This document shows positions 28,588 through 40,756 of a stretch of DNA of 64,000 nt, piece after piece. A program made the translations under genes and the position numbers. The notes under the pieces are model-generated. The model made no database searches and had not been told where the DNA came from. It saw nothing but the letters and a program-made list of their open reading frames with translations. The stretch's first letter is position 1; each line of letters starts with the position of its first letter. Source of the stretch: Nitrosospira multiformis (lineage in GTDB: Bacteria; Pseudomonadota; Gammaproteobacteria; Burkholderiales; Nitrosomonadaceae); assembly GCF_900111585.1 (NCBI RefSeq), contig NZ_FOHI01000012.1, positions 1 through 64,000 of the forward strand. Reading direction: 5' to 3'.

Positions 28588-28675
28588 CGGGGATTTAGCA
28601 GCCTCCCCATTCAAGACGCTTGCGTCCAAGGCCTGCTCCAATCTTAAGGGTTGAATTCCCTATGGAGGAGAATGC
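28588..28675 (+). ncRNA. Structured 5' leader of chrA (candidate cis-regulatory RNA)
   Basis: About 88 bases before the chrA ATG. Hairpin 1: GGGGA (28589-28593) with TCCCC (28604-28608). Hairpin 2: GACG-CTTG-CGTC (28615-28626). A possible third: GGG...CCC just ahead of the GGAGGAG ribosome-binding site. A second copy lies inverted at 40667-40756 before a chrA ghost. There hairpin 1 has one extra G and one extra C, a compensatory pair. I do not recognise it as a known riboswitch class. Confidence 0.45.
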
Positions 28676-29944
28676 ATGGACGTTTCAAGCCAAGGTATCA
28701 CGATACTTGATTCAGATACATTCCCCACTGACCTGAATGAGAGCATAGCGCACGTACCACACGAGCCGCTTGGCCGTCTCTTTTTGCGCTTTTTGAAGTT
28801 CGGTTCACTGGCATGGGGCGGACCCGTTGCGCAAATCGCGATGCTCCGGCACGAGTTGGTCGAGGAAGAGAAGTGGGTGAGCCCGCAGCACTTCAATCGG
28901 GTACTGGCGATGTATCAGGTGCTGCCTGGTCCCGAGGCACACGAGTTGTGCGTGTACTTCGGCATGCTGGCGCGCGGGCGCACTGGCGGCATCCTGGCAG
29001 GACTCGGCTTCATGCTGCCTGGCTTCCTGCTCATGTTCATCCTGTCGTGGTTGTATGTTCACTATGGGCTACAGACGACGGGTACTATTGCGACTGTATT
29101 CGCTGTTGTGCAGGCAGCTGTCGCCGCGCTCATTGTGCGTGCGGTCCATCGCATCGGCAGTCACGTGCTGCTTGATGGATGGGCGTGGATCATCGCACTC
29201 ATCGCCACGGTGGCTCAGCTCATAGGCATTCACTTCGCGATCACGCTCATCGCGGGAGGCGCAGCTTACGTGCTGGCGAAGCGGGGCTGGACGTCGCTTG
29301 CCACCCTCTTGATGGTCCTGTTCGCCGTTGGAATAACCGGTTGGCTCGCTTTCAAAGGTTTCGATCTCGCTGGCATGGGTAGCGCGGCCACGCAGCAGGG
29401 GCAAGGCCAAGCGCAGCGTTCGCTAGGGGAGTTGTTCATCTCCGGACTAAAAGCCGGCATGCTGACATTTGGCGGCGCCTACACGGTTATACCGTTCCTG
29501 CAGGAGGACGCGGTTGCTGACGGGGCCTGGATGACGAACACTCAGTTCCTTGATGGCTTGGCGCTATCCGGTTTGCTGCCCGCACCACTGATCATCTTTG
29601 CGACGTTTGTCGGTTACCTTGGCGGTGGTGCCGCCGGGGCGATTGCACTGACAGTAGGCATCTTCCTGCCTGCCTTTGCCTTCACACTCCTCGCGCATGA
29701 TCCTCTGGAGAAGCTTGTCAGCCAGCCGCGCATACGCATGTTCCTCGAGGGTGTCACGGCAGGAGTCGTCGGTTTGATCGCCGGGACCACCATCGCCCTG
29801 ATGGTGGTCAGCATAGTGAACATTCCCACCGCGCTCGTCTTTGCGGTAGCGCTCACAGCCCTTTTTTATTTTAAGTCCAAGCTGACTATCCCGCTCGTTG
29901 TCGCCAGCGCTGCGCTTATAGGTTTTGCGATGAGCCTCCTCTAG
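28676..29944 (+). CDS. chrA: Chromate transporter ChrA
   Basis: A 422-residue two-domain CHR-family transporter that pumps chromate out of the cytoplasm. ATG 28676 follows GGAGGAG. Each half starts with the CHR signature: FLKFGSLAWGGPVAQIAML in domain 1 and FISGLKAGMLTFGGAYTVIPFLQ in domain 2; YQVLPGPEAHELCVYFGML and GLALSGLLPAPLIIFATFVGYL also fit. Ten or more TM helices are predicted. No chrB regulator is adjacent. The gene is intact, while a near-identical 5' end plus ghost lies inverted at 40.4-40.8 kb, next to a DUF1259 gene of the type often found in chromate operons. An inverted duplication or translocation of the operon front is likely. Confidence 0.93.
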   Translation: MDVSSQGITILDSDTFPTDLNESIAHVPHEPLGRLFLRFLKFGSLAWGGPVAQIAMLRHELVEEEKWVSPQHFNRVLAMYQVLPGPEAHELCVYFGMLARGRTGGILAGLGFMLPGFLLMFILSWLYVHYGLQTTGTIATVFAVVQAAVAALIVRAVHRIGSHVLLDGWAWIIALIATVAQLIGIHFAITLIAGGAAYVLAKRGWTSLATLLMVLFAVGITGWLAFKGFDLAGMGSAATQQGQGQAQRSLGELFISGLKAGMLTFGGAYTVIPFLQEDAVADGAWMTNTQFLDGLALSGLLPAPLIIFATFVGYLGGGAAGAIALTVGIFLPAFAFTLLAHDPLEKLVSQPRIRMFLEGVTAGVVGLIAGTTIALMVVSIVNIPTALVFAVALTALFYFKSKLTIPLVVASAALIGFAMSLL

Positions 29945-29973
29945 CGGAACAGACGCTTACCTCCAAGAAGGGC

Positions 29974-32900
29974 CTATTGCCCATGAGTCCTGGACAGTGC
30001 AGGAAGCTTCCCGGCCTTGCTACTGGTAGCATTCTCGTGCGCATGGACAAGCCGGTATAGCACTGGCAAGACAAGCATCGTCAATGCCGTAGACGATAGA
30101 ATACCTCCGATTACCACGGTAGCCAGTGGTCGCTGTACTTCCGCCCCGGTGCTTGTCGCCAAGGCCATGGGGACGAATCCGAGCGCGGCCACGAGTGCCG
30201 TCATCAAAACGGGACGCAGCCTGGCGAGTGCCCCCGCTTGAATGGAATCATCCAGGCTCAATCCTTGTTTGCGTAAATCCCGAATGAACGCCAGCATGAC
30301 GAGACCATTCAATACGGCCACCCCGGACAGGGCAATGAACCCTATCCCCGCAGAGATGGATAACGGAATATCCCGCAACCACAAAGCCAATACTCCTCCA
30401 CTGAGAGCGAAAGGAACCCCCGTAAACATCAGCAAGCCGTCACGCACATTCCCAAACATCGAATAAAGCAGGATAAAGATCAGTCCAAGAGCGAGCGGTA
30501 TAACGATCTGGAGTCGCTCGGCGGCTGAAATGAGTTGCTCAAACTGTCCCCCCCAGATGATCCAGTAACCAGGAGGTATCTCTGCCTGCTCTGCGACGAG
30601 CACCTCAGCTTCTTTAACGAATGACCCCAGGTCGCGACCACGCACGTTTGCGGTAACCACTATTCGTCTTTTTCCGTTCTCGCGACTGATCTGATTTGGG
30701 CCTTCGACAACTTCGAGATTGGCCACTTCGCCCAAGGCAACATAAGCGGGGCGAGGCATCAAAATGCTGTTTGTATCTCCTCCAAGGCTGAATGCGGGAA
30801 TCCGGATAGGTAACTGGTTAAGCGATTCCATGTCGCCACGCCGCTCCTCTGGCAACCGGACTTGCAACTCAAAACGACGGTCGCCCTCATAAACCATTCC
30901 CGTAGGCCTGCCGGATATAGCAATAGACACTGCATCTTGTACATTGGCCACGCTCAGGCCATAGCGAGCCATTTTTTTTCGGTCCATCTGGATGGAAAGT
31001 ACTGGCAGCCCGGTAATCTGCTCGGTTTTTACATCTGCCGCTCCCGGGATTGTTTGGAGGAGTTTTTCGATTTGCTCGCCTGCGCCCAGAAGTGTGTCCA
31101 TGTCGTCACCGAACACTTTTACCGCCACATCCGCGCGCACACCCGATAGCAACTCATTGAAACGCATCTGTATGGGCTGCGTAAACTCGTAATTGTTACC
31201 CGGTATTTCCAGCACTGCCTGTTCCATCGCAGCAACCAATTCCGCCTTGGTCCGGTAGGCTCCCGCCCATTCCGACTGAGGCTTAAGGATGACAAAGGTA
31301 TCCGCCACACTTGGCGGCATGGGGTCAGTAGCAATTTCAGCGGTGCCTATCTTGGAAAAAACCCTGTCTACCTCGGCAAACGTCTTGATCTTTTTTTCAA
31401 GCTCGTCTTGCATTTCGATAGCCGAAGTGAGGCTCGTGCCGGGAATGCGCAGCGCATGCAGCGCAATATCTCCTTCATTGAGGCTCGGCACGAATTCGCT
31501 GCCTAGCCGCGTTGCCAAGAGGCCGGAGAGCACCACAATCACCACAGCGAGTGTGACCGTGTATTCTTTATTTCTCATCGCCGCGGCAAGAGCCGGTCTA
31601 TACACCTTTCTTGCCCATGCAACTGCCGCGCTCTCTTTTTCTTCGAATTTGCCATTCAGAAAAAGTGCCACCGCGGCCGGAACGAATGTTACGGAGAGAA
31701 TCATTGCTGCAAAGAGTGCGATTACGACGGTGAAGGCCAGGGGGTGAAACATTTTTCCTTCGACCCCGGACAGTGCAAAGATGGGGAGATAAACAACCAT
31801 GATGATCAGCTCCCCGTAGATAAGGACGCGTCGCGCTTCCCTGGATGCTTCAAAAACCATCGTAAAGCGCTCGCACGGGGTCAGCACTCGTCCTATTCGT
31901 GCCTGTTCTTGAGTCAAACGCCGAATACTGTTTTCAACAATGACGATGGCACCATCTACGATCAGGCCGAAATCAAGCGCACCCAAGCTCATCAAGTTCG
32001 CACTGACCTTGTTGGCCACCATGCCTGTGAACGTAAATAGCATCGCCAGGGGGATGACAAGCGCGGTAATCAGCGCAGCGCGCAGATTGCCTAAAAACAG
32101 GAATAACACCGCGATAACCAGGGCGGCACCCTCCAGCAGATTGGTTGCGACAGTTTGAATGGTTTTGTCTACCAGTGTGGTGCGATCATAGACAGGGGTG
32201 GCCACCACACCTTCTGGCAGATTCCGGTTGATCTCGGATAATTTTTTTGCAGTGGCGTGGGACACCGTGCGACTGTTTTCCCCGACCAACATGAGTGCCG
32301 TGCCGAGCACCACTTCCTTGCCATTTTGCATAGCCGCGCCGGTTCGGAGCTCCTTTCCTATCAAAATATCCGCCACATCCTTGATGCGTATGGGGATGCC
32401 CTGTCGCGAGCCGAGCGTGATATCGCCGATCTCGTCCAGATTCCCTATCTGGCCGGGCAAGCGCACAAGGTACTGTTCGCCGCTTCGCTCAATGTAGCCT
32501 GCGCCTACGTTGAGGTTGTTTTGTTCCAGGGCAGCGATAACGTCCTGTAGCGTTAATCCGAAGGAAATCAGTTTTTCCGGGTAGGGGGCGACATGAAATT
32601 GTTTTGTGAAACCGCCAATCGTATTTATTTCCGTCACACCTTTTACAGTGCGTAATTGCGGCCGGATGATCCAGTCCTGAATCTCTCGCAAATCAGTCGG
32701 GGTATAGGCGGTACCATCCGGTTTTCTCGCGTCTTTGTCCGCATCGACCGTCCACATGAAGATTTCACCCAGGCCGGTAGCGATGGGTCCCAATGCGGGA
32801 TCCACACCGGGAGGCAACCTGTCTTTTGCTTCCTGAATTCGCTGACTCACGAGCTGGCGCGCAAAGTAAATGTCGGTGCCATCTTCGAAGATCACCGTTA

Positions 32901-40377: not shown

Positions 40378-40397
40378 CGTGATTCCTCCTCTGGCTA

Positions 40398-40666
40398 AAT
40401 GAAGTTGAAAATAATCATTCCGGGAACCATGCCGATGATGCTGCAGCCTGGAATGACTGAAAAACTCCTGCCTTGAAGCGAAATAATGCAATCATTGCGA
40501 TAGCGGCAACCCGCTTTTTCTGACGAGATATTGGTGCACGGTCCCGATCTGTCCGGCCACGAACCGATGAATCCGAGCCTTGGCCAATATAAAGCGGCCG
40601 GGATGAGAATAGCAGGAGGGATGTATCTAAATCCGGTACCTTGGTACCTTGGCTTGAAGCGTCCAT
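40398..40666 (-). pseudogene. chrA: chrA ghost (5' end with little else)
   Basis: From the ATG at 40666 the first codons read MDASSQGTKVPDLDT, a close match to MDVSSQGITILDSDT of intact chrA. The similarity stops after about 15 codons. A short ChrA-like tail (ALFRFKAGVF, then in the next frame VIPGCSIIGM) appears before the DUF1259 gene, so nearly all transport helices are deleted. The ribosome-binding site and leader are retained. Confidence 0.65.
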
Positions 40667-40756
40667 GCATTCTCCTCCATAGGGAATTCAACCCTTAAGA
40701 TTGGAGCAGGCCTTGGACGCAAGCGTCTTGAATGGGGGAGGCTGCTAAATCCCCCG
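40667..40756 (-). ncRNA. Second, inverted copy of the chrA leader
   Basis: The reverse complement matches 28588-28675 almost base for base. In hairpin 1 the arms are GGGGGA and TCCCCC (40734-40739 and 40750-40755 on the plus strand), one base pair longer than in copy 1 by paired insertions. Hairpin 2 and the GGAGGAG site are unchanged. It now leads into the DUF1259/MFS genes through the chrA ghost. Confidence 0.45.

Follow-up and report, generated by a model that had tools for sequence, protein, structure and literature searches.

The stretch analyzed here (the window) comprises 64,000 nucleotides (nt) of Nitrosospira multiformis (contig NZ_FOHI01000012.1, positions 1 to 64,000; host genome G000, 3.2 Mb) and carries two inverted, nearly identical leaders, of which copy 1 precedes a chrA chromate transporter gene with a Chromate_transp domain and copy 2 precedes a chrA remnant. 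As a preliminary description made from the sequence had noticed, the leaders match closely: they form an inverted repeat of 120 nt (28605-28724/40618-40737) at 93% complementarity, which is the sole inverted pair reported for positions 27500-42000 (seed 11, minimum 25 nt) and which grows to 137 nt at 93.4% when one gap is allowed. Their similarity extends beyond the RNA into approximately 16 codons, and the strong ribosome-binding site that the same description had placed behind the hairpins is present as GGAGGAG (Table 1). It had also proposed a new regulatory RNA, a candidate that we rejected because both copies pass the gathering score (36.5 bits) of a covariance model that is already catalogued, Rfam RF03086 (chrB-b), and share with it the same two hairpins, the conserved CAAG and the terminal CUGC. 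A third genomic copy with these features lies on contig C15 upstream of a 459-codon chrA (41.5 bits on RF03086); in this copy (L091 6592-6656) the hairpin 2 region is longer, and CAAGAC is present twice. The related model chrB-a (RF03078, gathering score 43.9 bits) gave no match in the window or in the whole of G000, and a search of plasmid DNA with the copy 1 leader as query likewise gave none. The chrB-b motif reportedly stems from Weinberg and co-workers in 2017, and our literature searches found no published ligand or mechanism for it.

Table 1. Features of the two chrB-b leaders and the genes behind them (window coordinates)
Feature	Coordinates	Strand	Basis
Promoter-like TTGTTT-N17-TAATAT, copy 1, ending 14 nt upstream of the RNA core	28545..28573	+	
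chrB-b RNA core, copy 1	28588..28636	+	RF03086, 49.1 bits
Hairpin 1, copy 1	28589-28593/28604-28608	+	Pair counts, 80 RNAs
Hairpin 2, copy 1	28615-28618/28623-28626	+	Pair counts, 80 RNAs
Pseudoknot GCAG with CUGC, copy 1	28598-28601/28633-28636	+	Pair counts, 80 RNAs
CGUCCA (hairpin 2, 3' arm, with the adjoining CA), copy 1, complementary to UGGACG 28677-28682 (start codon region)	28623..28628	+	Swap tests, minimum-energy fold
CUCC, copy 1, pairing with GGAG 28667-28670 of the Shine-Dalgarno sequence in the predicted OFF hairpin	28636..28639	+	Folding
Shine-Dalgarno sequence GGAGGAG, copy 1	28664..28670	+	Sequence
chrA, chromate transporter, 422 amino acids, starting AUGGACG	28676..29944	+	Pfam PF02417
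Promoter-like TTGCCT-N17-TATGAT, copy 2	40773..40801	-	
chrB-b RNA core, copy 2	40706..40755	-	RF03086, 48.9 bits; hairpin 1 of 6 bp
Pseudoknot GCAG with CUGC, copy 2	40745-40742/40709-40706	-	RF03086 alignment
CGUCCA, copy 2, complementary to UGGACG 40665-40660	40714..40719	-	Folding
chrA remnant, 83-codon open reading frame starting AUGGACGC	40415..40666	-	blastn against intact C15 chrA
DUF1259 (PF07485) protein, ChrL-type, own Shine-Dalgarno sequence, ATG at 40377	39454..40377	-	Pfam
MFS transporter, behind DUF1259	38142..39425	-	Pfam

Selection on RNA structure had originally been read from a compensatory pair in hairpin 1, where copy 1 has 5 bp (GGGGA...UCCCC) and copy 2 has 6 bp (GGGGGA...UCCCCC). 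The difference in length holds, but the additional G is found where the homology ends upstream, so that instead of an insertion it could represent boundary sequence or a C-to-G difference, and the outermost model pair of hairpin 1 is a C.A mismatch in copy 1; taken alone, a single pair gained by one of the two copies is weak evidence for such selection. Homologous leaders do show the covariation that had been called for, and it is the covariation of the hairpins in 80 relatives that supports a structured RNA under selection for pairing. More specifically, we aligned 80 chrB-b RNAs scoring above 36.5 bits (78 distinct rows); 10 of the 90 matches with sequence context fell below this threshold and are excluded from the counts on the 80, as are 7 further below-threshold matches from the survey of the order. 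Across hairpin 1, hairpin 2, and the pseudoknot, 90.4% of cells were paired versus 81.6% in shuffled alignments, and two-sided changes affected 11 of 15 pairs (101 cells versus 34.5 in shuffles). The pseudoknot, which joins GCAG of loop 1 to the 3'-terminal CUGC, was paired in 98.4% of cells, with 3 of its 4 pairs changed on both sides and with rows that include GCAG:CUGC, GCAA:UUGC, and GCGG:CCGC. Hairpin 1, whose 5' arms are imperfectly aligned in this set, reached 83.4%, and CAAG is conserved and unpaired. Since the available part of one publication (PMC7657543) cites a pseudoknot in "chrB RNA," chrB-a or chrB-b unspecified, among new covariation-supported pseudoknots, we make no claim to novelty for the pseudoknot.

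The RF03086 model has 49 positions and stops before the linker, so that a further feature, found when the leaders were read to the start codon, lies outside it, namely complementarity of hairpin 2 and the tail behind it to the first codons of the downstream gene, with partners that change between RNAs (GGUGUCC/GGACACC, GGUGCGUCCA/UGGACGCACC, GCGUCCA/UGGACGC, and others). Start codons were automatic, unannotated calls and were usable for 79 of the 80 RNAs (all except G164:C98); five of the 79 were chosen by a search for Met-Asp and that of copy 2 was set by hand, and the tests were therefore repeated without these six. The mean RNAduplex energy between hairpin 2 plus tail and the RNA's own start was -12.37 kcal/mol, compared to -10.20 kcal/mol (standard deviation [sd], 0.27) upon permutation of starts among all RNAs and -11.22 kcal/mol (sd, 0.22) upon permutation within families, and the observed value was reached in 0/5000 permutations in either case. 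The same was true without the six placed starts (73 sequences; 0/5000 overall and 0/5000 within families), and a set of one RNA per genus (28 sequences) gave 0/5000 overall and 39/5000 within families. The difference between own and foreign duplexes was favorable in 11 of 14 families (10 of 14 with one RNA per genus), and GGUGUCC/U hairpins faced GGACAC starts in 16 of 17 cases, versus 3 of 62 for other hairpins. In free folding of the leaders, hairpin 2 was likewise expected to form 6.02 pairs with the region from the Shine-Dalgarno sequence (SD) to the start, versus 4.20 (sd, 0.27) in swapped leaders, and at least 3 such pairs in 66 of 79 leaders versus 48.5 with swapped leaders. Sequence comparison shows the complementarity to the first codons to be specific to each RNA's own gene. 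Neither this complementarity nor the pseudoknot figured in the preliminary description. This property, together with the covariation of the pseudoknot in the 80 relatives and the occurrence of the RNA without detected ChrB_N described below, is what the present analysis adds to the known chrB-b family.

When folded without pseudoknot terms, the window leaders form hairpin 1 and a long hairpin, in which CGUCCA pairs with UGGACG, and the SD, through its GGAG, with CUCC (-35.8 and -40.1 kcal/mol; z scores of -2.2 and -2.4; 5 and 3 of 200 shuffles as stable, respectively). Modeling thus suggests two folds that may be alternatives, from which we infer a switch. In our view, chrB-b is probably, although by no means certainly, a candidate riboswitch with a pseudoknot, located at the mRNA's very beginning (5' end), that turns translation on under chromate stress by blocking the hairpin that buries the SD and AUG. 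The RNA could form hairpin 1, hairpin 2, and the GCAG:CUGC pseudoknot or, alternatively, the long hairpin, in which UGGACG would be paired to CGUCCA of hairpin 2 (3' arm) and the SD to the CUCC next to the pseudoknot strand. The knotted fold would form first during transcription and would be held by a chromate-stress signal, in the simplest case chromate or its product, leaving the SD and AUG accessible so that the gene is translated (ON); without the signal, the burying hairpin would stop translation. In copy 2 the switched reading frame would be the chrA remnant, and the DUF1259 and MFS genes would follow via reinitiation or relief of polarity.

Forcing hairpin 2 to form opened (by >0.2) the AUG in 36 of 79 leaders, the SD in 17, and either of them in 46. 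Several results weigh against the proposed switch. In 11 of the 79 leaders the AUG was closed by forcing hairpin 2, as was the SD in 2, and the average penalty for hairpin 2 with its tail left free is 11.6 kcal/mol (79 leaders, pseudoknot energy excluded); as equilibrium favors the shut form, the switch would have to be kinetic, operating during transcription. Pairing of the pseudoknot strand with downstream sequence showed no gain over swapped leaders (2.40 versus 2.36), and the preference for the own start was reversed in 3 of 14 families (f85, f13, and f24) or, with one RNA per genus, in 4 of 14 (additionally f88). In a fixed register, covariation with the start codons was weak (59 distinct rows; best columns reached in 2 and 5 of 500 shuffles) and two columns were invariant or nearly so, and the signal requires shifts of register. 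Finally, both the ligand and the ON direction are deduced from gene content.

A position near the 5' end of the mRNA is suggested by promoter-like sequences. TTGnnn followed after 16 to 18 nt by a -10-like box occurred upstream of 60 of 79 RNAs, versus 7.3 (sd, 2.6) in base shuffles, and in 56 of these 60 matches the box ended 4 to 17 nt upstream of the RNA core, so the RNA probably lies close to the transcript start. A stricter consensus scan recovered the promoter-like match of copy 2 and did not recover that of copy 1.

The gene content that points to chromate comes from three overlapping surveys, each of which includes G000. Matches to chrB-b (E ≤ 0.001) were found in 16 of 61 genomes of a set of relatives, in 48 of 399 of the order, and in 20 of 398 of the phylum, 73 genomes in total; surveys of more than 40 genomes used stricter filters, and match counts are lower bounds. 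None of the three surveys gave a match in the 14 control genomes. The first open reading frames behind the 79 RNAs, a tally that includes remnants and short frames and in which one protein may count twice, encode Rhodanese (26), ChrB_C (24), Chromate_transp (23), DUF6815 (6), TauE (5), MFS_1 (3), and Fe-SOD (3) domains, with other families represented once. At one locus (L073, G137:C67, 3001-8742), chrB-b occurs three times in a span of less than 6 kb, before chrA, a 122-codon open reading frame, and a rhodanese-like/ChrB_C gene, respectively. DUF6815 (PF20668) lies directly behind chrB-b at six loci from three families (L078, L086, L087, L112, L114, and L115) and is a candidate chromate-related protein, and TauE/SafE-type exporters occupy this place in genus g242 (L108, L110, L111, L113, and L116), where they bear on the identity of the signal, chromate versus a sulfur oxyanion. 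Short open reading frames resembling decayed first genes were seen behind chrB-b at L099 (6432-6518), L136 (5705-5827), and L089 (4230-4337), and at L099 and L136 the short frame is followed by a chrA-like gene, as was once the case behind copy 2 of the window.

Genes of these kinds are also controlled by the ChrB protein: ChrB-type systems (the Cupriavidus plasmid cluster and TnOtChr) comprise chrA, SOD, rhodanese, ChrB_C, MFS, and DUF1259 genes. According to the part of the source available (PMC3817168), TnOtChr ChrB binds a chr promoter that has an imperfect inverted repeat, and ChrB is needed for chromate control; it is described there as a protein acting at promoter DNA, unlike a leader RNA. 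The leader could correspondingly be bound, as RNA or as DNA, by a trans-acting protein such as ChrB rather than be a self-sufficient switch, and ChrB_C of any kind does occur in 41 of the 73 genomes with a chrB-b match. Regulator-type ChrB, as seen on plasmid locus L183, nonetheless combines ChrB_N with ChrB_C, whereas the "chrB" first genes that we checked encode rhodanese-ChrB_C, and ChrB_N is not one of the 12 families that the search of the 79 first genes reported. ChrB_N was found in just 12 of 60 over-threshold chrB-b genomes, where several matches are weak and the profile may miss some, and was not found in the other 48, which led us to reject a ChrB operator as a general explanation; in G000, profile searches found neither ChrB_N nor ChrB_C. 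The chrB-b RNA therefore occurs where the ChrB regulator was not detected, and in the window it does so before chrA and a chrA remnant. Conversely, three Cupriavidus plasmid loci (L183, L184, and L187; ChrB_N was checked on L183 alone) have neither chrB-a nor chrB-b at gathering score. The spacing of the arms varies as well, and linkers of 19 to 49 nt fit an RNA better than a dimeric operator. We thus regard a protein-binding site as unlikely, although a protein other than ChrB may bind.

The riboswitch must also be weighed against a constitutive element of translation or stability, in which the 5' hairpins would protect the mRNA and the hairpin at the start region would set a low level of translation, with no sensing involved. 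The calculated stability of the burying hairpin, far greater than that of the forced fold, would suit such an element. The occurrence of ChrB_C or Chromate_transp domains in as many as 47 of the 79 first genes, spread over many families, the presence of two to four matches in 17 of 73 genomes, and the combination of a covarying pseudoknot with a CAAG that is conserved and unpaired, which resemble a sensor, make this an improbable account.

A further explanation holds that the complementarity to the start region is a by-product of common ancestry and of N termini in which the protein dictates Met-Asp, the RNA acting otherwise, for instance on transcription. Behind chrB-b, 61 of 79 starts encode Met-Asp (55 of 73 without the placed starts), compared to 3 of 97 other ATG genes with an SD at the same loci and 3 of the 26 ChrA genes that do not lie immediately after a chrB-b (automatic start calls). 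One of these three ChrA genes (L162, in the same-family genome G024) has CGTCCAAG upstream of an ATGGAC start and gave no chrB-b match; the two motifs are perhaps a decayed leader. The weak fixed-register covariation and the three families lacking the preference favor a by-product, which we nevertheless think hardly probable, as the swap tests hold within families and with one RNA per genus, Met-Asp starts precede proteins as unrelated as ChrA, rhodanese-ChrB_C, DUF6815, TauE, and MFS, and the scans of copy 1 and of the copy 2 strand reported no terminator-like stem.

Comparison with chrB-a is consistent with the riboswitch reading of chrB-b. Two of five plasmid loci scanned, both alphaproteobacterial, have chrB-a, and although the chrB-b model gives a chrB-a leader no more than 19.2 bits, the parts of chrB-a follow the same order: hairpin 1 with the pseudoknot loop, a short hairpin 2, AAG (in most), the pseudoknot strand, and a stem at the SD region. 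Of 27 chrB-a matches we examined 24, in which 5 of 5 pseudoknot pairs could form in 17 leaders and 4 of 5 in 7 (with G-U allowed and the best loop position used). The pseudoknot is mostly GCGAU:AUCGC, unlike GCAG:CUGC of chrB-b, and CGUCC follows the pseudoknot strand, whereas it lies within hairpin 2 in chrB-b. In chrB-a the 3' strand of the pseudoknot shares bases with the 5' arm of the SD-region stem just before the AUG, an overlap that supports an either-or reading of chrB-b. We tentatively raise the possibility, on which we would not insist, that chrB-a and chrB-b represent a single riboswitch class in two arrangements, which directly senses chromate or a derived oxyanion or chromium species, and that in chrB-b the switch extends into the codons, such that the RNA fixes Met-Asp in unrelated proteins. 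Translational riboswitches with pseudoknot aptamers, e.g., the preQ1 and SAM-II classes, likewise place a compact pseudoknot beside pairing that sequesters the SD or AUG; in chrB-b the sequestering partner additionally includes the first codons.

With respect to the genes in the window, the copy 1 chrA is 80% identical to a chrA of genome G027 and 34% identical to that of C15. The earlier assignment of copy 2 to a DUF1259/MFS operon is partly right: both genes lie downstream, but DUF1259 as the gene directly behind the leader was rejected, since the chrA remnant lies between. Positions 1-156 of this remnant match 1-177 of the C15 chrA (70%; blastn) and positions 160-241 match 1273-1355 (76%; E, 2e-12; 0/1000 shuffles as good). 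As only the 5' and 3' ends of chrA are represented, approximately 1.1 kb between them must have been lost; the chrA reading frame is lost as well, and a Pfam search of the 83-codon open reading frame gave no match. The DUF1259 gene begins 37 nt after it. In a congener (G005), chrB-b is followed by chrA and then by a gene that clusters with the DUF1259 gene of the window, and copy 2 therefore looks like the same operon minus most of chrA. MFS and DUF1259 genes are also mutual neighbors behind chrB-chrA-SOD-chrE-chrF in the Cupriavidus chr cluster, and, in the parts of the sources available, chrL is described as chromate induced in C. metallidurans (PMC7060636) and in Arthrobacter FB24 (PMC2751784). 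Because ChrL-type DUF1259 accompanies chr genes and chrL is chromate induced, both window transcripts probably belong to chromate defense.

Elsewhere in the window, an RND-type efflux set (ACR_tran, HlyD_D23, and OEP) occupies the minus strand between the two leaders (29974-36160), and its outer-membrane gene appears to be split into two overlapping frames (35090-36160 and 34735-35214), as if frameshifted. A match to Rfam psRNA2 (RF02349; 72.8 bits) lies at 8422-8613.

The pairing with the first codons makes the proposed mechanism exactly and cheaply testable. If the mechanism is true, the RNA would offer a possible account of how chromate defense is controlled in Proteobacteria where the ChrB regulator was not found, and an RNA that senses chromate could serve as a component of sensors.

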